Position numbers and translations under genes: made by a program
Notes under the pieces: model-generated
Seen by the model: only the letters and a program-made list of their open reading frames with translations
The model's database searches: none
Told to the model about the DNA's origin: nothing
Part shown: piece by piece, positions 10,501 through 49,400 of the stretch
How positions within the stretch are numbered: position 1 is the stretch's first letter
Layout: every line of letters begins with the position of its first letter
IMG/VR virus record: IMGVR_UViG_3300008952_000015
Span: 1-64,000 of that record
Source of the DNA: a virus
Strand: one strand, 5' to 3'
DNA: 64,000 nt

Positions 10501-11106
10501 TTAATATAAGCCCATCTCGCCCATTCGTTCGCGGCGCTCATGATATTCCTCTTCTGCAGCCTCTGCTTGCTCTCTAGCATATTCTTCATATTGCTTTTTT
10601 TGCTCTACGGAAAGTCTTCCTTCGGCTACAACCGGAACCACTCTTTTGCCTTCGCACTGCGCACAAGTAATATCATATGTTCCACCAAAATAATCCTCTT
10701 CAAAGTCTGGGTCATCATAAAAGTCATCGCTAGTCAGACCTCCTGCATCTATATTTGGATCAACTGTTTTGCCCTTTCCTCCACACAGGCTGCAAACCTC
10801 AAGTTCTGCTGGCAAGTTAAGCTCTATCTCTTTTTCTTCCGTCCACTCTCCTGTGTCTGGATCCTGCGTCATATCATCATCATCTAAATACTTGGTCCAC
10901 GATATAGTAATGGTTCCTGATCTCTCATCATATCCTTTCCAAGCGCTTTTTGCGTTAGCCCTTGGGTCCATCATATAATTTCGATCTTCAAGTAAAGCGT
11001 CCCGATAAGAAGCCTCTTTTGCCAAGGCGCTTAGAAGTTTAGCCTCTCTAAGAAGACCTCTTGAGTTTAAAATGCTTGCTAATTCAGTTAATTTATCTAA
11101 CATCAT
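10501..11106 (-). CDS. Zinc-ribbon hypothetical protein, 201 aa
   Basis: The N-terminus reads LTELASILNSRGLLREAKLLSAL, one copy of a helical module that recurs in other genes here (see 15978-16877). The centre carries a pair of zinc-binding motifs, CSLCGGKGK (about residue 106) and CAQCEGK (about 148), similar to DnaJ central-domain knuckles but separated by an acidic insert. The C-terminus is a charged helix (EQKKQYEEYAREQAEAAEEE). The start is a double ATG, and the spacing to the previous gene is 9 bases. Function is unknown. Confidence 0.6.
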   Translation of the reverse strand: MMLDKLTELASILNSRGLLREAKLLSALAKEASYRDALLEDRNYMMDPRANAKSAWKGYDERSGTITISWTKYLDDDDMTQDPDTGEWTEEKEIELNLPAELEVCSLCGGKGKTVDPNIDAGGLTSDDFYDDPDFEEDYFGGTYDITCAQCEGKRVVPVVAEGRLSVEQKKQYEEYAREQAEAAEEEYHERRERMGEMGLY

Positions 11107-15977: not shown

Positions 15978-16877
15978 TTATCTATTCTTGCTCATCCATG
16001 TATCCAAAAGGTCGGATACATCGTGAAGGCCACAATCATCTAATGATGAAGCAACACTTACAATGGGGCTAAGATTAAGCTGCGCCTTAATATGGCTTGC
16101 TAAACTTTTTATGGTCAAATCTAATTCGTTAGACTCCTGGTCAAAGCCGACGCTGTCGAGTGTATTTGAAATAGCTACTAAAGAATTCGTCATGTGAGCC
16201 AACGAAGTCTTACCAACTTCGAGAATTTGCCTCTCATCTTCTGTAAGATTTTGCGGAGTTAACTCACGAAGCCTGCCTTCTGATAGCTTATAGCCAGACT
16301 CAGGATCCCTGTGAGCTATTACAAGGTTCTTTATTATAAAACCTATATCCATAACATGATCTTCAGATCTGAGCCTGCCCTCAGGTCCTGCCCAATCCCA
16401 GTCACTTGCCGCAACCTTCTTCAGGACACCGTCTAATCTGTCAGCCTCTTTTGACAAGCCTTTTGCATCTAAAACACTTGCCATCCTTGAAAGACTAGAT
16501 TGTAAGGATGCGCTTCCACCTGGAAAAGATCTTCCATCTTCGGTTTTAAAGCCTTCGTTATAATCATATACCTTGTTCGTATAAGGGTCTTGATAAACCC
16601 CGTCAGACACCCTTTGGGCCTGAACGCCTATTCTATCTGGAGAATATCGAGTAGATAGATGAGGTGCCACGTATTCGGTAGGAACCCTTGAGTCATCACC
16701 CTCGGGCGCTATATTGTAAAGAGATTCCGTATCTCTGCCTATCGGAGCCTCTCCGCCCCTCTGAGAGAGATACCTCTCTCTTGTTGCATAGTCTGTAGTG
16801 TTAGACTGAAAGTGCTGAAAAATACCATGCTGATCTCCTACGGCTACTTTTGATATTCTACGTCTTGTCTTACTCAT
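15978..16877 (-). CDS. Virion-module protein with repeated helical 'LD..GL..EAd.LD' motif, 299 aa
   Basis: The N-terminal ~120 residues are polar, Arg/Tyr/Gly-rich and probably extended. The rest is helical. Three related segments are visible: LSRMASVLDAKGLSKEADRL (about residues 129-148), LVAISNTLDSVGFDQESNEL (about 233) and VSVASSLDDCGLHDVSDLL (about 273). Each has a hydrophobic helix, LDs-x-G-hydrophobic, a short acidic turn and a second helix. Similar single copies appear in the proteins at 10501-11106 and 13495-14982. An intrinsic terminator follows 32 bases downstream. I know no named family. A shared virion-assembly or interaction module is inferred. Confidence 0.6.
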   Translation of the reverse strand: MSKTRRRISKVAVGDQHGIFQHFQSNTTDYATRERYLSQRGGEAPIGRDTESLYNIAPEGDDSRVPTEYVAPHLSTRYSPDRIGVQAQRVSDGVYQDPYTNKVYDYNEGFKTEDGRSFPGGSASLQSSLSRMASVLDAKGLSKEADRLDGVLKKVAASDWDWAGPEGRLRSEDHVMDIGFIIKNLVIAHRDPESGYKLSEGRLRELTPQNLTEDERQILEVGKTSLAHMTNSLVAISNTLDSVGFDQESNELDLTIKSLASHIKAQLNLSPIVSVASSLDDCGLHDVSDLLDTWMSKNR

Positions 16878-25584: not shown

Positions 25585-26035
25585 TTCCAAGCCTCCGTAC
25601 TGAAGCTCCAGGGCGCTTTATGGCCCCATCTTTGGCCAACCTCTTTAGTCTAGCTATCTTTAAGTCTTCGTCTAAGTCTTCTCCTAAGTCTTCAGGCCTG
25701 CTCAACACCTCTTCTCTTATTTCATTTCTAATTTTCTCATAATCATCCTCAACAACCTCTGCCGTGTCGCCTGTATTCGTATCTTCAGAATCATCATCTT
25801 TTTCAGGCTTTATTGGTGAAAACTCAAGAAGCATAAAGAGAGTTATGTCAAACACAAGATCATCAGATAAGTTCTGAGCAAACTCCTGTTGTAGCAACCT
25901 CTGCTTAAACATACGCATTCTCTGTGTATGAGTTTCTCCAAGAACTGCAGCACCACATGCTGGACAACAATTGTTTATAAGTGCATGGCGCATCGAATTT
26001 TTTATTAAAAAATCACATTGTCTACAATTAATCAT
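25577..26035 (-). CDS. Small zinc-finger hypothetical protein, 152 aa
   Basis: The N-terminus holds a four-cysteine site, CRQC near residue 4 and CPACG near residue 24. The middle is helical and the C-terminal half is acidic, with repeated DLGEDLDEDL. It overlaps the DNA polymerase stop by 4 bases (ATGA). It probably belongs to the replication operon. Function unknown. Confidence 0.6.
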   Translation of the reverse strand: MINCRQCDFLIKNSMRHALINNCCPACGAAVLGETHTQRMRMFKQRLLQQEFAQNLSDDLVFDITLFMLLEFSPIKPEKDDDSEDTNTGDTAEVVEDDYEKIRNEIREEVLSRPEDLGEDLDEDLKIARLKRLAKDGAIKRPGASVRRLGSD

Positions 26036-29000
26036 ATATCTCTCCCATAAATTCTCTCTAAGTTAGATAAGGCTAGGTCCTTTTGGTCTAAATAGCTATT
26101 AACTTTACATATTGCTTTTATTGGCAGTCCATCTCTCAACATTGTTCTGTATCTTTCATAATCATCTGCCCATAAAGTCAGGCCACAAGTATCTCCATTT
26201 ACATCCTCGATGAGGTATTTTGCAAACTTCTTACCTATATTTTTACCATTTTTTATTGAAAATTCCTTTATTTTAGTTTTAATAATAGCCTCAACCTTAA
26301 TTCTTGTATTCTCGTTTAAGCTAGCGACTTGAGACAGAGGCGTTACCATTGAGCCTCCAGTAAAAAAGCTTTTAAAGACTTCGTGTAAATTCCCGCTTAT
26401 AGCCCTCCCAAGAACCTCTCTTTCGGAGAGAAGCATCTCTTTTCTGTCCCATTCTTCGTCAAGAGTGCCGAAATCTATTGCTGAGATAATGTCGCGAAAC
26501 TCATCGGATGAGATATCTATAGCGTGAGTCTTCATAAGCTCTGTCTTTTCGTCTTTAGCCAACTTTTTAAAAGCTGGATTATGAATTGTTGCTATTGCCT
26601 CTGTAGACTTTCTTATAGCGCCCCTTGCCTTAGATCTATACTTTTGATAGTTATCATGCATGTCCTTACGAGTTCTATTAAAGCAGTCTAAAGCCCCAGC
26701 TTTTACTAATGACTGAATTACCGTCTTTCCTACAGTTTTAGATTCATTTCTAGTCAGAAGCTCTGCAAAGTCGTTGTATGGCTGCATGTTTATTATACTA
26801 TAAATGGCCTTTTCTCCAACACCTTTTATTGCCGAAAGACCCGTAGATATCTCTCCATCCTTAAGTACGCCGTATTGCCCTGAGCTATTATTTATATGAG
26901 GAGGAGATACCTTTATTCTCATTTTTTTACATTCAGCCAAATACTCCTGCGCTTTATCACTGTTTGCATCTTCAGAATTAAGAAGGGCACACATGAACTG
27001 TGTCTTATAGTGACATCTCAGCCAAGCTGTATAAAATGATATGTGAGAGTAGGATATAGAGTGAGACTTGTTAAAGGCATATCCTCCAAGTGGTTCAATA
27101 TACTTTTTCCAGATTAAACTAGCTGTCTCATATGTCATCTCAGAGTAAGCCATGCAATCTTTTATAAAAGAAGCTTCCGTTCTCAAGACAAGATTGGGAT
27201 CCTTTCCTTTAAGTTTACTAATCTTTCTAAGGGCATCTGCCTGATTTAAATCCCAACCAGCGCAATCCTGGGCAACAAACAATGCTTGCTCTTCATAAAC
27301 CAAGACTCCATAAGTCTTGCTCAAAGCCCTCTCTAAAGTAGGGTGGTCATAAGCTACAGGCTCTAAACCCAGCCTTCTTTTAGCATAGCGTCTTCTCTCC
27401 GCAGGCAAACAAGACGGTCTGCCTATAGCATTAATTGCGCTTATATCCTCAATAGAAGACGGCTTGAGCTTTTTGCAGAATGGGGTTAGAGATGACTCTA
27501 GCTGAAATATTCCCGAAGTATCTCCCCTTCCGATCATTCTATATACGTCCTTGTCGCCTAAATCTATATCTTCTATAGACAGCTTTTTGCCCAAAGTCTC
27601 CTCTATTAACTTAAAGGTATTGTCGATAACTGTTAACGTCTTTAAGCCTAATAGGTCCATCTTAATAAGGCCATTATCTTCGCATCTTGTTTTCTCCCAC
27701 TGAGTTACAACATGTCCTTCGTCATCTATTCTAAGCGGAATAGAATCACTAAGAGGCTCGCTTCCGATAACAACCCCTGCTGCATGAACCGACCAATTTC
27801 TAGTTAAATTCTGAAGTTTTTCTCCATATTCTAATAACTCTGGATATTTTCTCATATATTCGGAAAACTGAGAACTATCTCTCATAGCCGAAGATAAATT
27901 TTTAGCATCAGGCATTATAGATGTTATCTTATTTGCAATCTTAAATGCAGAAGATTTATCTCCGCCCAACCTAAGGCTTCTTGCTACATCTTTTATTATA
28001 ACCTTTGGAGACAAAGTGCTCCAATTCGAAATGGACGCTACTTTATCTTCTCCATACTTATCTTTAATATATTCCTTGACTAAGCCTGGGTCTGAAAAAT
28101 CTGTGTCTATATCAGGGAAGGACTCCTTCTTGTTATTGTGAAATCTTTCAAAGATTAGCTCATACTTAATCGGGTCAATATCTGTAATCCCAGTTAAGTA
28201 GGCAACAAGAGATCCTGCCGAACTGCCTCTGGCGGGACCTACTGGCATCCTATCCTTTGCCCAATTTACATAATCTGCAACTATCAGCATATATGAGGAA
28301 AAATTCTTATCCTCAAGAACGCCCAACTCCATCTTGACCCTATCCCAATACTCCTCACGCTCATCCTTAGAAAGATGTGAGAGCTTTTTCTTAAACCCCT
28401 CTATACACTTATACCGAAGATACGACTTATCCTCAGAAATAGTAGAGCGACTCTTTTCTTTCCACTCTGAAAATTCATCGTAATCTGACTCCAGCGATGC
28501 TGCAAAAGAAGGAAGCTTTGCTCCCTGTGGCTTTATGTAATGAGGCTCGCTACAAGACTCCGTAATTCGTAAAGAATTTTTCATTCCAACTTCAGCAATC
28601 TCTCTTCCGAAGAAATCCGTAATCTCTTCATGCGTCTTTAGATACATATCTTGTACACCATACCTAAATCTGTCAGGATCATCCACCGCCTTCTTATCTT
28701 TTATAGCCAACATGAAATCATGATATTTTGCATGCTCCTTATCCCTATAATGAGCGTCACAAGTGATGACGTAAGGAATGCCCATATCAGCAGATAATCT
28801 TAATAAAGACTCGTTGAGCCTTTGCTGATTAACTTCTTTGCCACTTTTTGACACATCATACAGAGCATGAGGCTGCAGCTCCAGAAAGAACCTATCTTTG
28901 AAAATAGCATTCATCCTCTTGATATGACACACAGCCCTCTCTTCGTCATTATCTGTTATGAGAGTCTTTGCTATCAAGCCATTTGAACACGCAGTAAGCG

Positions 29001-29403
29001 CGATAACGCCCTCATTATATTTCTCTATATGCTCCCACGATACCCGAGGGGTCTTCTTTCCCATATACCCAGATACTTGGTTTTGAAATGCTGAATAATT
29101 TATATTTAGAAGATTTCTGTAGCCTACTTCATTCTGAGCTAGCAATACTAAATGATAATTTTTTCTCGTACTAAGATCATCTGTAAAATAAGCCTCCATG
29201 CCTGGAATTAATTTAACCCCAGTCTTCTGACTAGCAAGATAAGCGTCATAAAGAGCCGTTAAAGTTCCGTGATCAGTGACCGCTACCGCCGGGTGATCAA
29301 CCTCTTTCGCTCTCTCAAAGAGGTCATAGATGTCGTTCATTCCGTCTAGTGGCGAACCTAACTCCGTATGATTATGCAACGATACGAACATGCCCTTGCT
29401 CAT
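26032..29403 (-). CDS. dnaE: DNA polymerase III alpha subunit (replicative, DnaE-type)
   Basis: A C-family replicative polymerase of 1123 residues. The N-terminal PHP domain (about 1-270) opens SLHNHTELGSPLDG, with VTDHGTL. The palm has PVGPARGSSAGSLVAYLTG, with catalytic Asps in FPDIDTDF (about 425-432) and in KMDLLGLKTL (near 582). A later helix-hairpin-helix region (STGLSAIKGVGEKAI) and a C-terminal OB-fold (about 1030-1115, IKVEAIIKTKIKEFSI and GLTLWADDYERY) are present. No proofreading exonuclease domain is inserted, so this is the DnaE form, and no separate epsilon-like exonuclease is seen in the window. It is close to the length of E. coli alpha. It overlaps the downstream zinc protein by 4 bases. 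Confidence 0.95.
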   Translation of the reverse strand: MSKGMFVSLHNHTELGSPLDGMNDIYDLFERAKEVDHPAVAVTDHGTLTALYDAYLASQKTGVKLIPGMEAYFTDDLSTRKNYHLVLLAQNEVGYRNLLNINYSAFQNQVSGYMGKKTPRVSWEHIEKYNEGVIALTACSNGLIAKTLITDNDEERAVCHIKRMNAIFKDRFFLELQPHALYDVSKSGKEVNQQRLNESLLRLSADMGIPYVITCDAHYRDKEHAKYHDFMLAIKDKKAVDDPDRFRYGVQDMYLKTHEEITDFFGREIAEVGMKNSLRITESCSEPHYIKPQGAKLPSFAASLESDYDEFSEWKEKSRSTISEDKSYLRYKCIEGFKKKLSHLSKDEREEYWDRVKMELGVLEDKNFSSYMLIVADYVNWAKDRMPVGPARGSSAGSLVAYLTGITDIDPIKYELIFERFHNNKKESFPDIDTDFSDPGLVKEYIKDKYGEDKVASISNWSTLSPKVIIKDVARSLRLGGDKSSAFKIANKITSIMPDAKNLSSAMRDSSQFSEYMRKYPELLEYGEKLQNLTRNWSVHAAGVVIGSEPLSDSIPLRIDDEGHVVTQWEKTRCEDNGLIKMDLLGLKTLTVIDNTFKLIEETLGKKLSIEDIDLGDKDVYRMIGRGDTSGIFQLESSLTPFCKKLKPSSIEDISAINAIGRPSCLPAERRRYAKRRLGLEPVAYDHPTLERALSKTYGVLVYEEQALFVAQDCAGWDLNQADALRKISKLKGKDPNLVLRTEASFIKDCMAYSEMTYETASLIWKKYIEPLGGYAFNKSHSISYSHISFYTAWLRCHYKTQFMCALLNSEDANSDKAQEYLAECKKMRIKVSPPHINNSSGQYGVLKDGEISTGLSAIKGVGEKAIYSIINMQPYNDFAELLTRNESKTVGKTVIQSLVKAGALDCFNRTRKDMHDNYQKYRSKARGAIRKSTEAIATIHNPAFKKLAKDEKTELMKTHAIDISSDEFRDIISAIDFGTLDEEWDRKEMLLSEREVLGRAISGNLHEVFKSFFTGGSMVTPLSQVASLNENTRIKVEAIIKTKIKEFSIKNGKNIGKKFAKYLIEDVNGDTCGLTLWADDYERYRTMLRDGLPIKAICKVNSYLDQKDLALSNLERIYGRDI

Positions 29404-29478: not shown

Positions 29479-29769
29479 TTATTCGGGGCAGCAAATACCT
29501 GATATGTTTTCATATATATCATTTACAACTTCCATATCAAGCTCTTTCTTCGCAGCGGAAAGGGCTTGAGTCAGCTCTTTCTTTGGAAGATTCTTTTGCT
29601 TAATAACATCTGCAGACCACTCTCGCCTAGACTCTTGGAGATCCTTAATCTGCTGGTCGTATACCATATACGTCTTAACGTATTCTTTCACATCATTCAT
29701 GCACCAAGAGGCATCTTGGTTGTCCTGGGATTCTGTTTCACTTTCGTCAAAAATTCTTACGATACTCAT
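29479..29769 (-). CDS. Small hypothetical helical protein, 96 aa
   Basis: An acidic N-terminus is followed by a predicted coiled coil (VYDQQIKDLQESRREWSADV, then KKELTQALSAAKKELDMEVV) and a short end with CC. The alternation resembles small phage or GapR-like (DUF2312) helical proteins, but I cannot confirm a family. It sits 23 bases after the giant gene and 75 bases before the polymerase gene. Confidence 0.6.
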   Translation of the reverse strand: MSIVRIFDESETESQDNQDASWCMNDVKEYVKTYMVYDQQIKDLQESRREWSADVIKQKNLPKKELTQALSAAKKELDMEVVNDIYENISGICCPE

Positions 29770-29792: not shown

Positions 29793-32700
29793 TTATTTAT
29801 TTATGAGATTCCAAAGGGCAAGCAGCCCCTCGTCGTTGATTATACCCCCATAATACATGTTGGCATTTCTTTTTTCAGAAAATTTCACCAGCCCGAAGCT
29901 TGATACGGCCTCCTTTACAGGCTCCTCTAAGGGCGGTTGCAAATCACGTTTTACAAAGCTTGCAAGGTATTCGCTTATAGCTTCCGCGTATCTAGCAACA
30001 GAAATATGAGAAACCTTTTTTAACGATTTTTTATATTTCTTTAAACCCTTTTCGTCTTCTGGTAACGGAAAGTAATCGGGATCAGGCTCATTTTGAACGC
30101 CAGATATTATCGTATGTGCATAACAATGATCAAGGGAAAGTATGTCTGGACTATTTGGATCTCGCGCCCTATCTAATCCCTCTCTTGGACTGACGCCTTT
30201 GGAGCCAACCTTATTTGAAGGAAAAACGACATTCATGACCCTTATGTAAGCAGACGGATCTTCGGACACAGAGTCCGTTTGAGGGGTAGACCCTACTGGA
30301 TAAAACGAGCCCTGGCCCTTTACCCATAGGGGGAATCTTTTCAGCATTCCTCCTGCAACATTATTCTTCCGCTTCTCTACATCTTTGCCCTCAAGACCTA
30401 CCCATGCCATGCCAGAGGATCCTACCTCTGTCAATGCGGTCTCTATCGTCTGTCCAAATACTTCCCTAATATTCTTTCCGGAAATAACGCCACTCCCGAT
30501 AAGTCTTTTTATCGGATCCAGAAGATCAAGAGGATCTATTGTTGTGGATCCTAGTTGTCGTGAGTTGACATTGTCCAGTCTCAAGCTTATTTGCTCGGCC
30601 AATGTATCTAAATTATGAGTTTTTATTAAAAACTCTTCTACGGCCTCTTTTCTTCTGCTCTTAAGCTCATCGTCTCCCTTGGGCCACAGCTGATGCCCTC
30701 CCCATTCTGGCCCAAAGGCCTCCGAAGATATCATTCTATGCATGGTTACCCAGTCGACAAGCGGCAAATACAAAGAGCTTCTTGGCCTGAGCCTTTCTGC
30801 GCTACCTTCAAGATTGCTATGTATACCAATGCTTCCGCGATCTTTTACTGTAGAGATATTTCCTGACGCAACATTTAGTGGCAAGCCCCTATAAGTAGAG
30901 TGAAGGCTTGATATCACATCTCGGCACTGGGTTTCCATTGCCTTTCGATAACGTAATATGTATTCTAGCCCCTCGCTGCTTTTTGCTTTTCTCGCCCTAG
31001 CCTCATACTCCTCAGTCTCCAAAAGCCTCTTTTTGTAGGCACCGTAAATCTCTTCTATTCTAAGGAGAATCCTCAAAGCTTCCTCTGGAGGATCTCTTTG
31101 TAAAAAGCCTGACATATCCACACTTACCGGAGCATCAGATTCACTAGAGCTTATTTCGACCGGAATTCTAGTTCCCACTATTGGAAAGACTGGTTTTGAT
31201 GACGTTGTGTCAACTCCTTTGAAATCAATTGGAATTGGGACCCCAATATTGCTTTGGCTATATGGATCCGGAGGAAAGGTCATCTCACTTCCTCTTCTAA
31301 CAGATAATGGGCCAAGGAATAGCGTCTCTGACGAGTTTAGTCCAAGCTCATCATTGCTATAGCCAATAATTTTCTCATGTTCTCCTCGAACACTACGTGT
31401 CCCGGGATGATAAGCTATGCTTACACCTTCCGTCCAACCCTTGTTTGAGTTAGAAGACCCCGTTGCCCCGGTAAAGTCAGAGTATTCAGATGGGCCTCGG
31501 CCCATAGTAACAGAAAATACTCTCCAGCCATTCTCTCTATACGCCAAAGGAAGAGCTTCGTTTAGATCAAGAGATTCCGTTGATCCTGGCAAATCTTCTT
31601 TTGAAAGTACATAGCATTCATTAGAAGGCCCCAGATCAGGAAGGGTTATATCTATATCAAAAGAATGATAACCCCCTTTTCCGTCAAGGAGTTTGTAGAT
31701 GGGGTATATCGCGCCCTCTTTATCGGAATTTAGCCTAACTAACACTCCTCCAAAGGATGGGATAATACTCTCTGCGTCTACAGCGCCATGTCCTCCGTGA
31801 TACCTTCTGTACTTTCCGTCGGCATTTAAATTTATTGTAGTAAAGGGACTATTTGTCATAATGTTATCTATAATTAATCCCGCCCTCTTCACATCGTCAG
31901 GGCTTTCATGTTCACTTGCCTTGTGAACTATCTCTGACAGGAACCCTGTTATATATTCTGTTGACTTCTTCATATACTTGGCCGATGTGCAGGCTGTCCT
32001 TAAGGAAAATATTGCAGCCTGAAGGGCTTCAGAACACTCTGTGATAGGCGTTAGGCTCTTCGCATAAAAATCTTCTCTATCTCCTAACTGATCATATTTT
32101 CTGGCATACTCTTCAGAGCTTATTCCTATAACAATTTTATTTAAATCATCATGAGTAAGTTTTAATACCTTTTCAGCAGTTGATAAGTCAAGGCCTATAT
32201 CATATCCTATATATGAAGGAGATTCATTGTCCCTCATATATAAATTGTAAGAGTTAGACACAACGTCTGCTAGATATAAAGCGGAAGCGCCCTCTAGAGT
32301 TCTCCCCATATACTCTTTGCCCTTCATTTTAGCAACCTTGCTTGTAATGCCCTCTTTGGAACCAGTGGGTTTACCCTCTTCGTACCAATCGCCGCCCTTT
32401 CCTGTGGCTAATGGGTCGAGCAAGATTCTTGACCTATCCATCTCACTAAGAGCAGGGGGCTTGAGACTTCCTATTATCTCGTCTATAAGAGAGCCTGCAG
32501 TTGGTCCGCTAGGTCCTTTCTTTCCAAATAAGGATGTGTAATCTACCGCACCACCTTTTGTTAATTCCAATCGGAAAACATCACCCACCTGCTGGCGCTC
32601 AGTCGAACTCAAGTTAGCATAAGCACTTGGAATGGAGCGAAGAATAGACTTTGCTATGCCAACTGCCAAAAACTCCCTTACATTTTCTGGCGAATGATAC

Positions 32701-35700
32701 AGCATTCTTTTGTCAACAGATTGAAATTGACTTAAATATACTTCTGTAAAATAAGAGAAAGACTGTGCGAGAAGAGAATCTGCCTCTGCCGATAACTCGT
32801 CCTCCTCCTCTATCTCAACCTGCCTTATAATGGCCTCTATTGCACGCTTAGACCTGTCTGTTGCCACTGGCCCAAAGGACCCCTCTGTATCATCTTCTAA
32901 ATCTATAGCATCAGGACTACCTATCATAGAGCCATGTATCTCTAATGTTGTAGCGAGCTTTAACCAGCCTTGCATGCTCAGTAAAAATGAACGTAAAAGT
33001 CTTCCGATAACTGTCGTTGTCTGATTAAGACCCTCTTCTCCACGCTCGGCCAAACGCTTTGCGTTAGCGCCCTTGAGATCGCTTTGACCCCTTTCTTCCT
33101 CCCACCGACTCATAGATGCAGAACCTTCTGCGTCATGAGTTACATATTTACCATCTGAATCTTTAGTCCCCATACCTGTGAATGCTTCTGTTGATTCAAG
33201 ATAAGTTCGCGTAGCGCCATCTGCAGACTCTCGCTCCCTAGCCGAGCTAAGTGTATTGCCTTCTTCTGAGCCCCAAATAAAGTCTCTGGGGGCAGCATAA
33301 AATCCATAATGGTCGCCATTTGGCCCCTTAAACATAATTCTTTTTAGCTTTTTACCGGATATTTCACTATTCTTCCGCTTCCACTCATCATACAGATATT
33401 TCCGGCTAGAATCTGACCCTATAAGCTCGCTTTCCCTTGCCGCAGAAATATAGGCTCTATTATTTTTGTCTCTAAGGTTCTTGAAAGTATTTTCAAAATT
33501 TTCCTCACCCTCTGTAAGCAATACTCCAGATGCTATAACGCTATTTCTATCATATGCAAAAGCACTTCGGTTCTTAAAGTTTATTCCAGTATGAGTTCTT
33601 GCGAAATAAACAGAATCTCTCAAAGAAAATACATGACCATGTTGACAAACAAGCTTTATATCTCCAAGGATCTCCATTCGATTCATGTTTGTACCCTTAA
33701 CTCTTTTGGTTAAGTTTGCAGGAGAAGCCATTGCTACAGATAACAGCTGTGATATTTTATTTAGCCTGCCATAATTTTCCAAAATTGCCAACGTATCAGG
33801 CTTAGGCTTGTTCATTTCAGAGTCAATGTCATTCGAAATAGAATCTATAACTGGTGGCAGATTAATATCCGAAGAAGGATTACTAGGATCTTTAATAAAG
33901 GGAAGAATATCACTAAGGTCAACGCCAAGCTCCACAAGAGTGTCTACCAGAGCCTGAAGGGTCTCTGCTGCCTGAGGGCCCCTTTCCTCAGAAAAGAGAA
34001 CGGCGTCATCCATAAGGGTCTTTATAAGGGCCGGCAATGAGCCTTCTCCGTCCCTCAGAAAGGAGGATAAACTAGTCTTTGCCCCACACACTAAGTATGT
34101 CAGAGTACCCTCTACAAGGTTAGCTGGCTGGCCGGCTTCATTCACCGGAGGATATACCCTGGATCTTACTATGTCAATATGTCCATCTTCACCATATGCT
34201 ATTGAGTCTGCAGATATTGGCCCCGATATAGGGCTCGCTAAATAAGAATACTTAGACAAATATCCCTCGCTCTTAATAGCAGCGTTAGCCTTACTGGGAT
34301 CAGCCCGATCCTCGGGTGACATTTCTGGCAAAATATCAATTTTTGCGGGACAATTAAAAAACTTATTAGAAAACTTCCAGCCGCCGCCGGACCTTTTCTT
34401 CAGCTCAGACATAAATCTATCTTTAGCCGACGCATCTAACTCGCCAGACTCTATCGCCGCATCTAGCTTGGCCTCAAAAGTCTTCTTTCCAGAAGATCCA
34501 TCGGCTGGGCCTCTGATTGTTTGCAAAGACTCAGGAGAAACATTTCCTCCGGAAGATATTATGGGACTTGGATCAAGATATAAGCCGCACTCAAAGTCTG
34601 TAATTTTAGGCTTCCACTTTGTGCCGCCCTTCTTGGCATCCTCTATAGACTGAACAAGTTCGACCGGCCTATCCCTTTTATCTGAATAAGGACACTTGTA
34701 TTTCCTTGCTGATACAGGCTTATCTGATTCGCTAACTCTTCTGGCCCCAAGTTGACGAAAAGCTTCCGACCTCCTAACAACTCCCTCTATATGCTCTGCC
34801 TTAGAGCCTGAACTTACCAGAGAGCTTATCTCAGGCCACGTCTTGGCTCCAGCATATTCAGGATGAGATTCTGGAGGCAGAAAGCCTCCTTCTTTTTGGT
34901 TCAATACGTCTTCTGTTATTAGGTCTCCACTCTTTGTAAATAAACTATATGAGGGAACATCATATTCCGAGTAATCTGACTTCTCCACGGAACCACTTCT
35001 GCCGCTACCTTTTGGATTTATAATAGCGGTTCTTGTATAAACGTTCTTGCCGCAAACAGAACATGATGAATAATTCCAATGCTTTGTTTTTACCTGAAAG
35101 GCCTTATTGTAAGCAAGATGACACAGTATTGCTCGCTGAAGCCCTCTTGCTACCCAGCTGCAAAAGGAAGACCTGGCCCAAGCTCCCGATGCGCTTTTTG
35201 AAAAAAATGTTTGTATTTTATTATGCAGCTGATGCATAAAAATATCCATAAAAGTTGCACTTAACTTCTCGTAATTATCTCTAAACTTCGATGGGATACT
35301 AGAGCTCTCCCCTTCCCCCAAATGAAACACCTCTGTCTGTATATCTACGAACACCAATGAGCCGCATATAAGAGCTAAGTCTGAAGCCATTGAGCTTTCT
35401 GCATCTCTAAACTCAGAAGAGAGCTCATACCCCCTACTCCTTAAAGCCTTATGCACCCCAAAGCCTTTTTTCCTATAGTCTCTATATAACAAGTCCGTTA
35501 CATGCTGATCTCTCTTCTTGATTGCAGAAAGCAAGTCATCTGTCCGATTGGCCAGGCGTCTTCTTTTCTCGTTATAAGTAATAAGCGCTGCTCGAAGATC
35601 TCTGCCTTCTTCCTTTTTGGAAACGCCATCAAGCTCCTCCATCATTCTGGAGGCTTGGTCCGAGATTGTATCTAGCTCAAGCCCTACAGCCTGTCTTAGA

Positions 35701-36677
35701 GCGACCATCTTGTCCAGTGAAACCGAAACAACAGGGGGGTCTACTGTCTCATCAACAATCAGCCCTGTAGCCTTATCACCTAATTTCTTAAAAATAGGAT
35801 GAAAGTTTAACGGAGTAATATGATCATCTTCTTCTCTCGCAGCCCTAAGCCTTTGATAGTAATTATTTCCAGAATTTTCCGCTTCAAAAAACTTATCTGT
35901 CGTATCTACGCTCGTATAGACATTGTCTATATTTATTTTATCAGGCTCTGTCGGCCAATCATTTTGCCTTCCTGCGAATTTTCCGCTTACCGCCTCAAAC
36001 ATCTCTTCTGAGACAGCGTCAGAAGAATGTGGTTCATGAAGAGACTCTACGTCTAGAACAGGCTGCCGAATACGTTCGACTCTACTAGGAGCCTTGGGAT
36101 CTTCTGGCTCATCACCTTCACCTGCATAATATAAGCTTGTATTAAATTCATCTTCAAAAAAATCGCGAAGACCATACTCGCGTATAAAGAAGTCAATATT
36201 CTCTGCAGTCTCGCCCGATTCTTTATTAAGATTAATCTCAACGCCTGATGGCTGAAGAGCTATTGCCAAATATTCTGCAGCGTAAAGCACGCCACCTTCG
36301 TTGAAACGTGAATGAAAGTTAGTGTGAAGCTCCTTCATGAAAGCCTCTTCTTCCTTGCCCTGGCCTTCAGAGCCATAATCTTCCTCAGAGCCATAATCTT
36401 CCCGGCCTTCGGATTCATCATCATAATCGTCCTGCGGGTCCCAGCTAGTTAGAGTTCCCCACCCGTCGTCCTCGTCCGAGGGGTATGGATCTTCGTGGTC
36501 GCCGCCGTCGCCACCAAAAGTATCGTCTCTTAAAAGCCCAGGCTGATAGGGAGCTACCTGAAAGGCACTTGCTATTTCTTTGTGAACATCCCCTAGGGCA
36601 ATCACAAATTCACTATGAGCCTCCTCGCCTTCTATAGGTAGTTTTCTCAAGATTGCTTGAATTTTATATTTACTCAT
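29793..36677 (-). CDS. Giant protein of unknown function, 2294 aa
   Basis: The longest gene in the window. No transmembrane segments, no long coiled coil and no collagen or fibre repeats are visible, so it does not look like a tape measure or fibre. The N-terminal ~120 residues are acidic, with a duplicated EDYGSE from an 18-bp tandem repeat. Possible zinc sites are scattered: CSVCGKN near residue 537, CPYSD near 662, CGLYL near 695, CPAK near 775, VCGAK near 863 and VCQHGH near 1008. The rest is mixed alpha/beta. The ATG has AAGGGA upstream, and a 20-codon frame ends 1 base before it. It lies between the 429-residue unknown and the replication operon. I find no recognisable enzyme motif. A virion-internal or nucleic-acid-handling role is possible. 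Confidence 0.75.
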   Translation of the reverse strand: MSKYKIQAILRKLPIEGEEAHSEFVIALGDVHKEIASAFQVAPYQPGLLRDDTFGGDGGDHEDPYPSDEDDGWGTLTSWDPQDDYDDESEGREDYGSEEDYGSEGQGKEEEAFMKELHTNFHSRFNEGGVLYAAEYLAIALQPSGVEINLNKESGETAENIDFFIREYGLRDFFEDEFNTSLYYAGEGDEPEDPKAPSRVERIRQPVLDVESLHEPHSSDAVSEEMFEAVSGKFAGRQNDWPTEPDKINIDNVYTSVDTTDKFFEAENSGNNYYQRLRAAREEDDHITPLNFHPIFKKLGDKATGLIVDETVDPPVVSVSLDKMVALRQAVGLELDTISDQASRMMEELDGVSKKEEGRDLRAALITYNEKRRRLANRTDDLLSAIKKRDQHVTDLLYRDYRKKGFGVHKALRSRGYELSSEFRDAESSMASDLALICGSLVFVDIQTEVFHLGEGESSSIPSKFRDNYEKLSATFMDIFMHQLHNKIQTFFSKSASGAWARSSFCSWVARGLQRAILCHLAYNKAFQVKTKHWNYSSCSVCGKNVYTRTAIINPKGSGRSGSVEKSDYSEYDVPSYSLFTKSGDLITEDVLNQKEGGFLPPESHPEYAGAKTWPEISSLVSSGSKAEHIEGVVRRSEAFRQLGARRVSESDKPVSARKYKCPYSDKRDRPVELVQSIEDAKKGGTKWKPKITDFECGLYLDPSPIISSGGNVSPESLQTIRGPADGSSGKKTFEAKLDAAIESGELDASAKDRFMSELKKRSGGGWKFSNKFFNCPAKIDILPEMSPEDRADPSKANAAIKSEGYLSKYSYLASPISGPISADSIAYGEDGHIDIVRSRVYPPVNEAGQPANLVEGTLTYLVCGAKTSLSSFLRDGEGSLPALIKTLMDDAVLFSEERGPQAAETLQALVDTLVELGVDLSDILPFIKDPSNPSSDINLPPVIDSISNDIDSEMNKPKPDTLAILENYGRLNKISQLLSVAMASPANLTKRVKGTNMNRMEILGDIKLVCQHGHVFSLRDSVYFARTHTGINFKNRSAFAYDRNSVIASGVLLTEGEENFENTFKNLRDKNNRAYISAARESELIGSDSSRKYLYDEWKRKNSEISGKKLKRIMFKGPNGDHYGFYAAPRDFIWGSEEGNTLSSARERESADGATRTYLESTEAFTGMGTKDSDGKYVTHDAEGSASMSRWEEERGQSDLKGANAKRLAERGEEGLNQTTTVIGRLLRSFLLSMQGWLKLATTLEIHGSMIGSPDAIDLEDDTEGSFGPVATDRSKRAIEAIIRQVEIEEEDELSAEADSLLAQSFSYFTEVYLSQFQSVDKRMLYHSPENVREFLAVGIAKSILRSIPSAYANLSSTERQQVGDVFRLELTKGGAVDYTSLFGKKGPSGPTAGSLIDEIIGSLKPPALSEMDRSRILLDPLATGKGGDWYEEGKPTGSKEGITSKVAKMKGKEYMGRTLEGASALYLADVVSNSYNLYMRDNESPSYIGYDIGLDLSTAEKVLKLTHDDLNKIVIGISSEEYARKYDQLGDREDFYAKSLTPITECSEALQAAIFSLRTACTSAKYMKKSTEYITGFLSEIVHKASEHESPDDVKRAGLIIDNIMTNSPFTTINLNADGKYRRYHGGHGAVDAESIIPSFGGVLVRLNSDKEGAIYPIYKLLDGKGGYHSFDIDITLPDLGPSNECYVLSKEDLPGSTESLDLNEALPLAYRENGWRVFSVTMGRGPSEYSDFTGATGSSNSNKGWTEGVSIAYHPGTRSVRGEHEKIIGYSNDELGLNSSETLFLGPLSVRRGSEMTFPPDPYSQSNIGVPIPIDFKGVDTTSSKPVFPIVGTRIPVEISSSESDAPVSVDMSGFLQRDPPEEALRILLRIEEIYGAYKKRLLETEEYEARARKAKSSEGLEYILRYRKAMETQCRDVISSLHSTYRGLPLNVASGNISTVKDRGSIGIHSNLEGSAERLRPRSSLYLPLVDWVTMHRMISSEAFGPEWGGHQLWPKGDDELKSRRKEAVEEFLIKTHNLDTLAEQISLRLDNVNSRQLGSTTIDPLDLLDPIKRLIGSGVISGKNIREVFGQTIETALTEVGSSGMAWVGLEGKDVEKRKNNVAGGMLKRFPLWVKGQGSFYPVGSTPQTDSVSEDPSAYIRVMNVVFPSNKVGSKGVSPREGLDRARDPNSPDILSLDHCYAHTIISGVQNEPDPDYFPLPEDEKGLKKYKKSLKKVSHISVARYAEAISEYLASFVKRDLQPPLEEPVKEAVSSFGLVKFSEKRNANMYYGGIINDEGLLALWNLINK
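36367..36402. repeat. Perfect tandem 18-bp repeat x2
   Basis: Units at 36367-36384 and 36385-36402 are identical and encode the duplicated EDYGSE motif in the acidic N-terminus of the giant protein. Confidence 0.9.
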
Positions 36678-36678
36678 C

Positions 36679-36741
36679 TTATTCCCTTAAATTAAACCAC
36701 ATAGCAAAATAACTGCTCAACAAATATTCTTTTATAATCAT
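36679..36741 (-). CDS. Possible 20-codon leader ORF before the giant gene
   Basis: An ATG at 36741 opens a 20-residue frame (MIIKEYLLSSYFAMWFNLRE) whose TAA ends one base before the giant gene's ATG (TAAGATG). A weak AGAG precedes it. It could couple or regulate translation of the giant gene, but it may be chance in AT-rich sequence. Confidence 0.25.
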   Translation of the reverse strand: MIIKEYLLSSYFAMWFNLRE

Positions 36742-36789
36742 CTCTATTCTTTTTATTAGTAATATAATCCTCTTCTGTAATATTAAAAT

Positions 36790-36795
36790 ATTATA
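36790..36795 (-). promoter_or_regulatory. Possible -10 element upstream of the giant gene
   Basis: The minus strand reads TATAAT here in a 138-base AT-rich gap, about 113 bases before the giant gene's ATG. No matching -35 is seen at the expected spacing, so it is weak evidence for a promoter. Confidence 0.25.
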
Positions 36796-36815
36796 GCGGC
36801 ATAATACTGCGTATA

Positions 36816-38105
36816 TTACCTTATTCCAAAGGTTAGCTCAAATTCCTCTTCTATAGAAGAAACAAGCGTAGAGATATACTCTTTGGCCCTCCCCAGGTGA
36901 GTCGCCTCAGACCTAGTCGCTGCAACCATAGCCCTAGAGAACGAGGGATCTACCCCTACAGAGTTATCTCCTGAATTGTTTATTGCAGAAATAATCTCTT
37001 TGTCACTTATGTCTATATGACCGGCCATAGGGCCTTCGATGCCAAGCATCGTAGATAGTTCTCTTTGCAAATATGGATTATCAATATGTTCTGGCCACTC
37101 CCAAACGGGCTTGGCAGCTATTGCTTTATAATAAACCCCATTATCATTGTAATTAAAAAAATCTTTCTCAAAAACAGGGGTAAGCCTAATTCCCTCGGAG
37201 GACCATAAATCAACGTATAAAAGTTCTATCGACTCATTGCCTACTCTCTTAATGGGGGTCGTTAGGCCGTACCCTCTTTTTACAAAGCGTTTCTTTATGT
37301 ATGTTCCATTTTCATTAAAAAACCTTTTATCTTGAGCCAAAAGCCTTCTTACGCTATAAGCGCCAGGATATCTGCAGAAAATATTGGACAAAGGATAAGT
37401 CGCTGAAATGAAATTATTATGCCCAAGAGTCCCATTGATAAGAAGGGGAACCTGCTCAATTCCGTCGTTATAATACTTAAACAATAAATATGGCATATCA
37501 GAGAAGAAGTCTGAGAGGGTGCTCTTGACACTGTCAAACTCTGCTGGTGTCAGACCCGCATCTATCTTTGCAACCAACCCCTTGGCTTTATCGTGAATAA
37601 ACCTAGCCACACAATATACCAGCACCTGGATTCGTGCCCGAGCCTTTGCTAGGGCCACCCCCTCTACCTCTAACATGTAGTCCATCCCATGAGACTCAAG
37701 GTCTTTATCGCTTACTCCTGACAGACCTCTTATATAGGCGTCCTGAATTAAATTGATCTCCTTTATATCTACATCTAAAAGATCTTTATATCTTTTCACA
37801 AAGAATTGCAGCCGACCCCTTAGCTGCTCTATTTGAACATCTGTAATGATTCTAGTTTTTTCTTCTGCTTTATTTTCATATTGCTCATAAAATAGATGTC
37901 TATTTCCTCGAAATAAACTCATAGCGGTACGCATTTCATCTATTGATTCCGCACCAATTTTTTCAAAGGGATACTCAACAAAATCTTTCTCTATGGCGAG
38001 AAGCCTTATTTTGTATTGCTTTTTAGAGCCTTTGTTGAGCAAAGATATCTTATATCTTGCAATATCTTTTTCTTCAGCAATATGTTTTAAAACAGCATCA
38101 TTCAT
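36816..38105 (-). CDS. Hypothetical protein, 429 aa
   Basis: A soluble mostly helical protein of 429 residues in its N-terminal half (EQLRGRLQFFVKRYKDLLDV). The C-terminal part is richer in aromatics and strands (KRFVKRGYGLTTPIKRV, VFEKDFFNYNDNGVYYKAI). Its start overlaps the end of the sigma-like gene by 8 bases, and the giant gene follows 138 bases later. No family is recognised. Confidence 0.6.
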   Translation of the reverse strand: MNDAVLKHIAEEKDIARYKISLLNKGSKKQYKIRLLAIEKDFVEYPFEKIGAESIDEMRTAMSLFRGNRHLFYEQYENKAEEKTRIITDVQIEQLRGRLQFFVKRYKDLLDVDIKEINLIQDAYIRGLSGVSDKDLESHGMDYMLEVEGVALAKARARIQVLVYCVARFIHDKAKGLVAKIDAGLTPAEFDSVKSTLSDFFSDMPYLLFKYYNDGIEQVPLLINGTLGHNNFISATYPLSNIFCRYPGAYSVRRLLAQDKRFFNENGTYIKKRFVKRGYGLTTPIKRVGNESIELLYVDLWSSEGIRLTPVFEKDFFNYNDNGVYYKAIAAKPVWEWPEHIDNPYLQRELSTMLGIEGPMAGHIDISDKEIISAINNSGDNSVGVDPSFSRAMVAATRSEATHLGRAKEYISTLVSSIEEEFELTFGIR

Positions 38106-38811
38106 CTCTTACTATCAAATCTCCAAGCATATCTGTTATGAGCTTGTACTTAGAAAGCTTCTTCAACCTCATACTTGCGGCCCACCCAGTTAGGCCAACT
38201 TCGCTAGCGGCATCTTTTATGGAGAACCCATCCAAACATACCTTTCTTAAAATAATGTAAGTCTTCTCGTCCACTAGAGAAGCCACTTTTTCTATGGCCA
38301 GCTCTAGATCTATTCTCTCATATACAGTTCCATCTTCAGAATACAAGGAATCAGAATTAGACAAAGTATTTTGAAATTCACAATACTCCTCCCCACTATT
38401 AGGGTCTACCTTTGCCATAGCGCTAAAGCTCAACTCCTCTCTTGATTTTCTATACTTAGGCTTCTCTTCTTCTCCAGGCGCAGAAAGCTCTCTCAAAGAG
38501 CATGCATCATTAGATAGCTTATTTACGCTTTTAATTTTAGATATCAACTTATTTCTAAGATGTGTATGTAAAAAGGTGCTTAATTTAACTTTTTTGTCAG
38601 GATCATAAGCGTTTATGCCCTCTACTATTATAATAGAAAGCTCTTGCTTTATATCCTCATAAGTATATCCAGGGAGATATGTCCTCGATGACCACTTGCA
38701 CAGCAGCGGGTCTATTCGCTCAAGAACCCTTGAGTACCCCTGTTTTGTCTTCATGTCAATATAGACCTTCTCTTCATACATCTCTACATATCCGCTGTAA
38801 GCATTCTTCAT
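38098..38811 (-). CDS. Sigma-70-family-like factor
   Basis: A protein of about 237 residues. A region-2-like segment reads YEDIKQELSIIIVEGINAYD followed by VKLSTFLHTHLRNKLISKIK, matching the helix that binds RNA polymerase and melts DNA. The C-terminal region 4-like HTH is in DGFSIKDAASEVGLTGWAAS and the following LKKLSKYKLI. Start choice: a GTG at 38865 lies deep in the previous gene. ATG 38811 has GGGAG five bases upstream. ATG 38823, one base after the previous stop, is the alternative. It probably directs phage transcription. One T4-late-like element is seen at 1556-1563, but a link is unproven. Confidence 0.72.
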   Translation of the reverse strand: MKNAYSGYVEMYEEKVYIDMKTKQGYSRVLERIDPLLCKWSSRTYLPGYTYEDIKQELSIIIVEGINAYDPDKKVKLSTFLHTHLRNKLISKIKSVNKLSNDACSLRELSAPGEEEKPKYRKSREELSFSAMAKVDPNSGEEYCEFQNTLSNSDSLYSEDGTVYERIDLELAIEKVASLVDEKTYIILRKVCLDGFSIKDAASEVGLTGWAASMRLKKLSKYKLITDMLGDLIVRDE

Positions 38812-38824
38812 ATGATCTCCCATC

Positions 38825-39589
38825 TCATTCCGCCCAGGCTTCTTGGCAGATTGCTTTATAGTCACACCAGTTACATAAAAATGTTGGCTTCTTAATCCAC
38901 GTATTGTCAGTTTCTATGTGTGATGCATTTTTCAACAAAAGCTTGTTACACCTATCTAAGTCAGAAGCTCTAAAGGTAAAGTCTTTAGTTTTACACTTAT
39001 GCTTAAGAAGCAGAAAGGATCCATGTACAACCTTCACATCTCCATACTTGCGGTTTAAAGCCTCAGCATATACCAGGAGCTGAAACTCAGACAAATATTT
39101 TTCATTCTTACTTGTCTTATAATCAACTACCCTATACTCTCCTGGGCCTACTTTGTCAACTCTATCTATATAGCCTCGAACAATAGAATCTCCATCTATC
39201 TTAAATGAGAAAGGCATTTCAACCCCTATAACATTTGGCATTCCGTTTTCTTTGATATTGTCCAAATAATCTTGGATTATCTCCCTCATGTAAATTATGC
39301 CAGGCTGATCCCCATCTGGAGTCCAAGTAGGTTCCTCTAAGATGTTTATGTCAAACTCTTTTACGCCAGCCTGAAAACACTTCTTCATAAGAAGGGGGTA
39401 TTCTTCCTTCTTTACGGGCCTCTTTAGAATCTCTAGGTGAAAAAGCTCTAGAATCCTATGAGCACAAGAGCCGAACTCTGTAAAGTTCCACTTAGACTCC
39501 TCTACCTCCGGCTTTTCTATATACCTGTAATGATATTTCTTCGGACACTTTGTATATGTATCCATTGATGACACTGATAATTTTAACAA
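38825..39589 (-). CDS. RecB/Cas4-like PD-(D/E)XK nuclease
   Basis: A 254-residue exonuclease of the RecB/Cas4 superfamily. It opens with SSMDTYTKCPKKYHYRY, including an early Cys. The catalytic set GYIDRVDK then RVVDYKTSK, with the D-(E/D)xK core, follows at mid-protein. It ends in CNWCDYKAIC, which with the early Cys gives the four-cysteine iron-sulphur pattern of this family. The TTG start at 39589 has GGAG seven bases upstream. It lies beside SbcCD genes and likely trims DNA ends in recombination, replication or packaging. Confidence 0.82.
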   Translation of the reverse strand: MLKLSVSSMDTYTKCPKKYHYRYIEKPEVEESKWNFTEFGSCAHRILELFHLEILKRPVKKEEYPLLMKKCFQAGVKEFDINILEEPTWTPDGDQPGIIYMREIIQDYLDNIKENGMPNVIGVEMPFSFKIDGDSIVRGYIDRVDKVGPGEYRVVDYKTSKNEKYLSEFQLLVYAEALNRKYGDVKVVHGSFLLLKHKCKTKDFTFRASDLDRCNKLLLKNASHIETDNTWIKKPTFLCNWCDYKAICQEAWAE

Positions 39590-39602: not shown

Positions 39603-40478
39603 TTAAAACAACTGACTTAATGCCCGATCCTGGATCCACCTATAAACAAAGCGCCCCGTTGATCCAGATCCAATTCTCAAGGTTTTCCGATCTATAGTCT
39701 GCTCCGATCTCAACCACCTAGACTCAAGGCTCTCCCAATAATATGATACATATTTCTTTGTCTTTGGGTTGTAAAAGCTTCTTACGAAATTTCCTGTTAT
39801 TATTGGCTCTTTCTCGCCCAGCCTCTCTTTATAAAAATTTGTAGTTGTTCCAAATGTATTATAGGGACGATTAACAATCTTGACAACTTGATTGTCTCTA
39901 GCTTCTTCTGTCGACCCATCTATAATAATAAACTTTGCAGACGGGTCGAAATTTGGGTTATTATTCGGAGAAGATATGGGGTCGGGCTTCATCGCCTGAT
40001 TTTTTAATGGAAAATTTATAAACTCCTTAGAGGTCTTGCCTCCTGCAATAGCTTCTCCGCCAGCATTGGTCTTAGAGCTTTTGATTTCAAGACCCCCTAT
40101 ATCCACAGAGGTCTTTTGAGCCTCCTCTCCATCAGATGTATACCCTAGACTATCGATAGACTCATCTCCGTATCTCATAACAACGATGCCTTCTTCTCCT
40201 AGAATTCTAGGTCCCCCAAGATCTGTAGAGCTATTCTCATATTGAGCAGTTACTATATCAGAAGAATCACTTCCAGAGATAGCTATAGCTTTCACCTTCA
40301 GCGTTCCAGCTAATGTGGGCAGGAATACCTTGCCTATGGCAATAAGAGAAAGCTCTGTAGGCTCTGAGTCATCTAAGGTGTAGTAAACAGTCGAGGGCAC
40401 GTCTGTTTCAAATGATATAGTCTCAGGAAACCCATCTAAAAGCTCTCCCTCTCCCTCTATTATAGTTAAACTAATCAT
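39603..40478 (-). CDS. Structural-looking protein with chitobiase C-terminal-like domain, 291 aa
   Basis: Residues about 1-85 resemble the beta-sandwich domain CHB_HEX_C (PF13290), with the motif VYYTLDDSEPTE and AGTLKVKAIAISGSDSSD, as seen in bacterial surface enzymes. The middle is Gly/Ser/Asn-rich and low complexity. The C-terminal ~90 residues (NFYKERLGEKEPI, YYWESLESRWLRSEQT) appear globular. A virion or decoration protein is plausible, though it sits among DNA-repair genes. AAGGAG precedes the ATG at good distance. Confidence 0.65.
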   Translation of the reverse strand: MISLTIIEGEGELLDGFPETISFETDVPSTVYYTLDDSEPTELSLIAIGKVFLPTLAGTLKVKAIAISGSDSSDIVTAQYENSSTDLGGPRILGEEGIVVMRYGDESIDSLGYTSDGEEAQKTSVDIGGLEIKSSKTNAGGEAIAGGKTSKEFINFPLKNQAMKPDPISSPNNNPNFDPSAKFIIIDGSTEEARDNQVVKIVNRPYNTFGTTTNFYKERLGEKEPIITGNFVRSFYNPKTKKYVSYYWESLESRWLRSEQTIDRKTLRIGSGSTGRFVYRWIQDRALSQLF

Positions 40479-46405: not shown

Positions 46406-49400
46406 TCATCCCGATTCATCGCCGGCAACATTTGAGATTATGATATTAGGCACCGCAGTATTCTGGTTGCCCATTACAATCTGCGATCCGGTGCCTGATG
46501 TATTATAAAGCTCAGGTTCATATAAATTTCCAAGAATATCATTAGCGACAAACTGATACGTCTGACTAACATCAAAAATCAAACTCTCTGATGCATCATA
46601 GTATTTGAAAAATAAAGTATCACCCTCGCTGTTACTACGCAACTGCATCTCATAAATAATGCTCCCCGCATACGGTCCAAAAGGAGCTATGAGCTGTGTT
46701 GCAACCCCCCTTACCTTGCCATCCTCATCAAATGCTGCAAACAGATCTCCTTCTTCGGCAAAGCCAGAACCCTCGTTCATTGAAGGATTCACTACCCCCA
46801 CCGCTATAGTTGCCGTAAGTTCATAAGCGCCTGGATCATCTTCCCAATTAGGAGTGCTATCAGGCGGTGTGCCATTTATTGTGAGGGTGACAGTAGCCAT
46901 ACTGCTATCTGACTCTCCATCATTAACCACAAGCCCATACTCATGAACTCCTGCGCCAAGCGACTCTCCTGATCCGATGCCTAAAAGAGGAGTGCTCAAA
47001 GAGCCGGGATTTAACAGCGTAGGGGTTCCGCTATCCGCTGGCACGCTATAAAAAGAATACGACACTATCTGATCTCCATCGGGGTCGCTTCCAAGTCCAT
47101 TTAAATAATATACAATACTGTCTGGATCCCCCGACATGACGGGCTCTCCGCCAGGTGCTCCTGCGCTAATATACAAAGAAGCAGTAGGCGTCTGATTGGC
47201 TTCAATTACTGTAACTTCCCTTTTCCCCTCATCTGCAGAGCCTCCCTGGGGGTCTTCGACATTATATGTAACTATATAAACCCCTGGGGTAGAAGTGTCT
47301 ACGTTATTGGTCGTAACAATGCGTTCAGTTATATCGTTACCTTCTCCGTCATCGGCTGTTGCTCCTTCATCCATATACGAATCATGTTGTGAAACCGAGA
47401 CAGAAGAGGCCCCTGTTATAGTTATAATTGGCCTCTCATTTATAGCTAACTCAGAAAATGCAGTAAATAACTTGTCGAAGGTTCCGCTTCCTGTTTCAAT
47501 ATCGGGAACCACCGTATATTCCACCTGCTCACTCGTCTTCCAAACCTTAAGTACCATTAGGTTGCCCTCGACAGCCCCTGCTGATATTGGGCCGCTAAAA
47601 TCTGAAAAGTCGTAAGACATAATTCCTACCACCTCAAGTTGATTTCCGGTCCAGACGCCAGACCCAACTAAGACCTCTCCATACTCTGGATTTGTATCAG
47701 TTGGGTACAGAACACCATTCCGATCAAAAAGTCCGACTTCATCTCCGGGCTCTAATAACGTTATTGAGTCCAAAAGTATTGCTAGCGAAGATACTCCTGT
47801 GTCGGCTATACTTACTACAAAGTGACTCGGCTGAGGTCTGGCTACAGCAATTGTCTTCACAGCAACTGCTCCTGTATTTATCCCATCACTAGCTGTCAGC
47901 TTAACCGTATAGTCCCCCTCGGCATCTGGAGTCAAAAAAGCCTCAACAGTACCTGAGGTGCCCGTCATCTCCTGCGCACCGACCGGCGTAAGCTCTGCTA
48001 AAGAGCCAGCGGGCTGGTCCGTCATAAGCCACTCATAAGTAATTGTATCATCATAATCTTGGTCCCATACAAATGCTGTAAAATGAATCTGATCTGATAT
48101 CACAGGACTGTCCGGATAAGACTGTATGTCTGCAATATTTACAGCGACATTCGCAGGCACCACAGTGACCTCTCTAGTTACTTCATCTGCTGCCTGTCCA
48201 TGACTGTCCGTTACATTGTATCTGACAGTATAGGTGCCAGGAGTGGTCGTATCAACTGGATTTAGCGTATCAATACTAGGGGTCAAATCACCGTCCTCAG
48301 AGTCTATGGCTGTAGCTCCAGCGTCAACGTAACTCACATCAGCACCTGCTATAATATCCGGAACATCTAAGGGGGGATTAGGCGTTATTACAGGCTTGTT
48401 ATTTGCCAAGCATCTAACGGTTCTAGAGGCAGTTGTTACGTTTCCAAAGCTGTCCGTAACGCTATATATAACTTGACTCTCACCTTCGGTCGATGTGTTA
48501 ACTGGCAGCCCCTCTATCATAATTTGATCAGAGGTGTATACCCCATCAACATCATCAACAGCATAAGCGCCCTTATCGTAATAAGGTGACTCGCCAGGTC
48601 CATGAAGAGCATCCTCTGCCGCTCCATATGTATCTCCCACCGTAATCTCAACTATTTGATCTCCGTATACAGTTATTATAGCAGGATCGTCAGGAATCAC
48701 ATCAACTATTCTAATTCCAATTTCTGAGTTTCCAACAGAGTCTGTTGCCGTATATATAACCTCGTTGCCTAAGCTTGAAGTTGATGTATCAATAGGCAAT
48801 CCGCTAATCATAATGTCAACGGAGCCGCCCTCTGGGTCAACAGCATAAGCGCCCATATCATAATCAGGGAGACCATTAAGGGCATCCTCCGCCTCTCCGT
48901 ACTCACCATAGCTAGGAGTTTGCCTAATAATCTTTGGATTATCACCCAAGACAACCACCTCTGGAGGCTGATTAGGCATACAGTATGTAGTATTTATTGC
49001 AGCAACACTATCTAGTTGACCATCATTTACTACCAAGCTTATCTCGTAAGTACCCTCTGCATCTGGAATAAAAACTCCTGTTGATGAGGAAAGATCATCT
49101 AAGCTTATGTAGGATCCTTGTGGCTGACTAACAAAACTCCATACATATTCTATGCTATCTCCATCTGGATCTGAAGAGCCGGTAGCATCAAGGGATACCT
49201 CGGTCCCAACAACTGTGTATGGATCAACAGTAAAAGATGCTATCGGGGCACTATTTGTATTTTCTATATAACAACTAAAATCTGCAGGAACGCTATATGC
49301 GTTATTAGCTCTAACTACTAATGAGACATCTAGATCTATATTTAGCATCTTTGCAAATATCCGATCGCTGGTATCTATTGTAAAGACCGGCTTGCTCATT

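Follow-up and report, generated by a model that had tools for sequence, protein, structure and literature searches.

A giant orphan protein with two putative long-range zinc sites, encoded just upstream of DnaE in a group of large uncultured phages

An open reading frame for a protein of 2294 residues (hereafter the giant) occupies positions 29793–36677 on the minus strand of the 64,000-nucleotide stretch of DNA analyzed here (hereafter the window), which belongs to an IMG/VR virus contig of 128,565 bases. These limits are exactly those claimed in an earlier reading made without database searches (the sequence-only reading), to which the strand is now added. The frame starts with ATG and its product, which founds a protein family, has a computed mass of 254 kDa and a pI of 5.2. 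The same reading had described a soluble protein devoid of membrane segments, and the sequence agrees, since no membrane-like segment is present and the maximum Kyte-Doolittle mean over 19 residues is 1.53. Residues 46–240 (35958–36542, minus strand) form an acidic, poorly conserved stretch in which 53 of 195 residues are Asp or Glu, and residues 1191–2294 (29796–33107, minus strand) constitute a C-terminal part with helical and beta segments. Profile self-comparison with hhalign detected no significant internal repeats.

The giant belongs to an operon with the gene order CHC2 primase, SbcD, SbcC, p291, Cas4-like nuclease, sigma factor, p429, giant, p96, DnaE, SSB, RuvC, GroEL and RecA. The names Cas4-like, sigma and DnaE and the CHB_HEX domain of p291 are supported by profiles, and the other neighbors were named by eye from their sequences. 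Directly downstream of the giant is p96, a conserved small gene of 96 codons (29479–29769), followed by the gene of DnaE, the alpha subunit of DNA polymerase III (26032–29403). Upstream, a gap of 138 nt (36678–36815) separates the giant from p429 (36816–38105), whose product of 429 residues belongs to no known family. p429 is overlapped by 8 nt by the gene of a sigma-70-family factor (38098–38865; PF04542, 6.6e-08), and a PD-(D/E)XK or Cas4-like nuclease is encoded in the same operon (38825–39589; PF12705, 1.2e-28), all of them on the minus strand. Between SbcC and this nuclease, p291 (39603–40478) encodes 291 residues with a CHB_HEX_C_1 domain and is conserved with the operon.

Loci were gathered by anchoring on the neighboring DnaE, and 44 were obtained. 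By a profile of the giant, and counting as relatives proteins of 2010–2675 aa, or the part of them present on a contig, 37 of the 44 loci have one immediately upstream of DnaE. Four loci had too little upstream DNA to be informative, leaving 37 of 40, and in the other three the flanking genes were kept and the giant was absent. Full-length homologues were also found on other IMG/VR contigs. Relatives were found at one place only, between p429 and p96 just upstream of DnaE, and a single such site was present in every one of the seven larger contigs that were examined; two stretches matched by the giant in contig G013 proved to be one frame of 2675 aa. Contigs of the lineage reach 395 kb, and extra scans with divergent members returned the same lineage only, as far as examined and with one new contig (L084) left out. 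The giant lineage is a group of large uncultured phages. At two of the loci (L013, positions 4889–9865, and L047) DnaE is split into three overlapping reading frames with intein-like ends, an arrangement reminiscent of an intein that is fractured or split, with its endonuclease free-standing.

Identity among relatives of the giant falls to about 15% (14–25% overall) with collinearity preserved, whereas DnaE stays above 50%. The dN/dS ratio was about 0.14 overall against a relative 77% identical and, between two close sequences, about 0.07; it was at most about 0.25 in every region examined against the 77% identical relative, the N-terminal 240 residues being the most relaxed part. The giant is under purifying selection across its whole length. 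Its low dN/dS and its full-length collinear homologues of 2010–2675 aa indicate that it is a real gene and not a chance reading frame. A 1897-aa fibre-like protein of the window (46406–52099) differs from the collinear giant in that its matches in relatives are mosaic, with a conserved N terminus and a patchy remainder.

The distance between p429 and the giant was −11 to +16 nt in most relatives, 31–71 nt in a few, and 132–138 nt in the window and in locus L001, and that between the giant and p96 varied from −52 to +105 nt. Within the gap before the giant, a block of 39 nt (36732–36770) is nearly identical in L001. A recurrent promoter block upstream of the giant was considered and rejected, since the block occurs once in the window and all other loci with it belong to the window's own contig or to its nearest relative. 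In comparisons with four relatives, identity was 32–38% for the giant, 41–45% for p429 and 74–78% for DnaE. p152 was likewise low (42–50% against these four, 40–50% in several comparisons) and the other compared operon genes showed 51% or more, making the giant, p429 and p152 the fastest-evolving of the set; because the pace of p152 is similar to that of p429, the giant and p429 cannot be recognized as a pair from rate alone. p429 is the probable partner of the giant. The portal is 79–95% identical across the lineage. In another contig (G012, positions 84268–86451) two pieces matching the portal lie in one frame of 745 aa, some 180 aa longer than in relatives, possibly because of an intein.

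In the three loci devoid of the giant (L039, L048 and L055), p429 adjoins p96 with gaps of −4, 30 and 20 nt, respectively, and no giant between them. No giant was found elsewhere in these contigs, and the L055 contig, of 128 kb, yields no giant by profile and has reading frames of at most 1200 aa. In a DnaE tree in which identical rows were entered once, L039 and L055 are nested among carriers of the giant; L048 is absent from the tree and has the gene order of L033, which is sister to carriers L030 and L031. Loss of the giant in the three lineages is the simplest reading, and relocation to an unsequenced part is possible because the contigs are fragments. Retention of p429 in all three implies that p429 does not need the giant. 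The sequence-only reading had suggested that such a large coding investment reflects a main function; presence at 37 of 40 informative loci and purifying selection speak in its favor, although three contigs keep the operon without the giant.

The giant matched no family in Pfam, PHROGs, NCBIfam, PADLOC or PDB sequences, and tblastn against 50,697 phage records gave no match, so that the claimed absence of recognizable domains held against every library searched. Two scans of genome contigs with degenerate peptide patterns, by which distant copies could be missed, revealed no host or provirus copies. Structures were predicted with AlphaFold2 in two halves from 28-sequence alignments, with a pLDDT of 72.9 and a pTM of 0.60 for residues 1–1190 and a pLDDT of 74.9 and a pTM of 0.74 for residues 1160–2294. 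Both models are a mixture of helix and strand, and parts of the acidic stretch (residues 50–105 and 185–240), with pLDDT below 50, are probably disordered. Foldseek gave no match at E 0.001 or better for either half against the PDB, or for the N-terminal half against BFVD. A search for RNA polymerase, helicase or protease folds had been proposed earlier; neither Foldseek nor profiles lent support to any of them and these candidates were rejected. Concerning RNA polymerase in particular, there is no polymerase fold match and a single invariant Asp, in models of moderate confidence. A role in defense was rejected, given the lack of a PADLOC match, and recognizable effector domains, several of which would be expected in a polyvalent or co-injected protein, were not detected in the libraries searched. 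No profile or fold match to known tail or baseplate families was obtained (in BFVD, for the N-terminal half); such a match would have counted against the earlier reading. As judged from sequence comparisons, the giant is the founder of an orphan family, real and long-conserved, with no match in the reference collections searched.

An alignment of 29 family sequences contains 20 invariant columns, made up of seven Cys, one His and otherwise Gly, Ser, Pro, Trp, Leu, Phe and a single Asp, with no Lys, Arg or Glu. Seven of the 15 cysteines of the giant fall in these columns (hypergeometric p 7e-12, taking columns as independent). Putative zinc site 1 (34587–35063, minus strand) comprises C539-x2-C542 (codons 35061–35063 and 35052–35054), C662 (34692–34694) and C697 (34587–34589), and putative site 2 (33633–34352, minus strand) comprises C776 (34350–34352), C864 (34086–34088) and C1011-x3-H1015 (33645–33647 and 33633–33635). 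The family thus carries a zinc-binding signature of invariant ligand sets, CCCC in 28 of 28 sequences and CCCH in 29 of 29. Scattered Cys pairs had been noted earlier at positions that proved right within 3 residues; only C539/C542, however, is a CxxC pair, the others being single cysteines. Motifs around the invariant residues are CxxC, KxKCP, CG, FxCP, CGAxTSxSxF and CxxGHxF. In the AlphaFold2 models C539 and C542 sit between two predicted strands, several of the motifs lie between short strands, and the 10-residue blocks of site 2 have a pLDDT of about 91–92. This pattern of ligands suggests that the giant binds metal, probably through two long-range zinc sites, CCCC and CCCH. An origin of the two by internal duplication was rejected, as hhalign detected none. 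The composition of the invariant columns, with Gly, Ser, Pro, Trp, Leu, Phe and one Asp beside the Cys and His, argues against an active site, and none of the invariant residues looks catalytic.

The tail genes were located in fuller relatives. In a relative of 232 kb, one contiguous module accounts for the sheath (PHROG, 6e-15) and the sheath initiator, a virion structural protein, a frame weakly matching a tape measure, and baseplate J, whose gene is about 93 kb from the giant; in contig G010 the giant lies at about 111–118 kb and the tail module at about 180–210 kb. The relative's module already encodes very large proteins, 1624, 2614 and 3245 aa long, and includes a separate 639-aa frame whose weak similarity to TMP_3 (E 0.0054) falls short of the curated cut-off. 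The giant itself lacks the marks of a tape measure: it is not beside tube or sheath genes, has no significant repeats and mixes helix with strand. The Pfam sheath model PF04984 gave no match, which means little because the relative has a PHROG sheath match. Baseplate J is present in seven of eight contigs searched, the exception being the window's own, which therefore appears incomplete. With the tail module elsewhere in the relative and no family match, the giant as a tail or baseplate part was rejected. The window's contig also encodes at least 11 otherwise dissimilar proteins that have in common a ~29-residue motif resembling LAxxLDxxGLxKEAxxLDxLI, in most cases close to the N terminus; the set consists of nine seed proteins and two found by profile, and includes those encoded at window positions 10501–11106 and 15978–16877 and by L058, L059 and L060. 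This motif, possibly a common tag for targeting or packaging, is absent from the giant.

Our best guess, held tentatively, is that the giant is a non-enzymatic, zinc-stabilized scaffold acting with p429 inside the infected cell. Its architecture would consist of a segment close to the N terminus, acidic and partly disordered, a central region (residues ~530–1045) held by the two putative zinc sites, and a C-terminal part of 1100 residues. The giant and p429 would be made as a pair from an operon that also encodes the Cas4-like nuclease and the sigma factor, would form a complex, and, judging by guilt by association, might tether or organize the phage DNA-metabolism or transcription machinery. 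In favor of a scaffold are the single genomic position, the p429 gap mostly of 16 nt or less and the similarly fast evolution of giant and p429; the lack of a known domain or fold, with an invariant set that argues against an active site; and the location of the contractile-tail module elsewhere in the fuller relative, together with a portal, a core virion protein, far more conserved than the giant. Against it, phage proteins above 2000 aa are usually virion parts, which favors a virion-associated or ejected protein, and a separate promoter could lie within the 132–138 nt gap, with its conserved block, of the window and L001. The persistence of p429 in three contigs devoid of the giant and the comparable rate of p152 also weigh against it. 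Nearly as likely is a protein packaged in the head, delivered with the DNA and acting early on the host, like N4 vRNAP or P1 DarB; a virion-internal or ejected role had been surmised in the sequence-only reading. The size of the giant and its rapid collinear divergence would suit such a protein, as would its acidic, partly disordered N-terminal segment, losses in some lineages fitting an accessory early-infection factor, and the placement of the window's operon between head genes and fibre genes. On the other side, in most relatives the giant nearly abuts the p429, sigma and Cas4 operon and not late genes, it lacks the ~29-residue motif, a putative tag, that at least 11 other proteins carry, and it has no polyvalent-protein, ART, protease or RNA polymerase domain. 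The choice between scaffold and ejected protein weighs gene context against the general tendency of very large phage proteins to be parts of the virion.

Two further explanations appear improbable. That the giant is a tail, baseplate or neck protein whose gene moved out of the tail module would suit its large, soluble, multidomain nature, and CHB_HEX domains, such as that of p291 in the same operon, occur in extracellular and fibre proteins. This is hard to reconcile, however, with a contiguous tail module already endowed with proteins of 1624, 2614 and 3245 aa, with the absence of the giant from the locus in three contigs (at least the L055 contig shows no tail module), with the much stronger conservation of the portal, or with the lack of any PHROG or Pfam tail match. 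Even less probable is a very divergent enzyme, such as a single-chain polymerase or helicase, with a fold poorly resolved by AlphaFold2. In its favor, multisubunit RNA polymerases contain zinc sites. A Zn-ribbon in phage nvRNAPs (PMC7824862), the sigma factor in the operon and the moderate model confidence (pTM 0.60 for the N-terminal half) would also be in keeping with an enzyme, against which stand the lack of a catalytic set in the 20 invariant columns, the lack of Foldseek matches for enzymes well covered in the PDB, and a family identity of 14–25% overall versus more than 50% for DnaE. Returning to the scaffold, a fuller proposal, itself rather doubtful, would be that the giant represents an undescribed class of giant non-enzymatic phage proteins with two long-range zinc sites, forming with p429 an intracellular scaffold for DNA replication or transcription and lost by some members.

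The giant defines a new protein family, without a relative among the cultured-phage records that were searched, and the invariant CCCC and CCCH ligand set provides a testable signature for it. The maintenance by purifying selection of nearly 7 kb of coding DNA whose product has no detectable fold match implies an as yet undescribed function, and the giant-less contigs that keep the neighboring genes provide natural deletions for comparing function. A polyvalent protein unites 2 to 15 domains with disparate activities (PMC5512222). Like these and other co-injected giants such as P1 DarB and N4 vRNAP, to which an early role in infection is ascribed, the protein described here is large and phage-encoded and may act early; unlike the polyvalent proteins, it has no such domains that could be found. 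With zinc-ribbon and zinc-knuckle proteins the giant shares CxxC, CP, CG and CxxGH motifs beside predicted strands, and it differs from them, with no Pfam family match, in ligand sets that span 159 and 240 residues.
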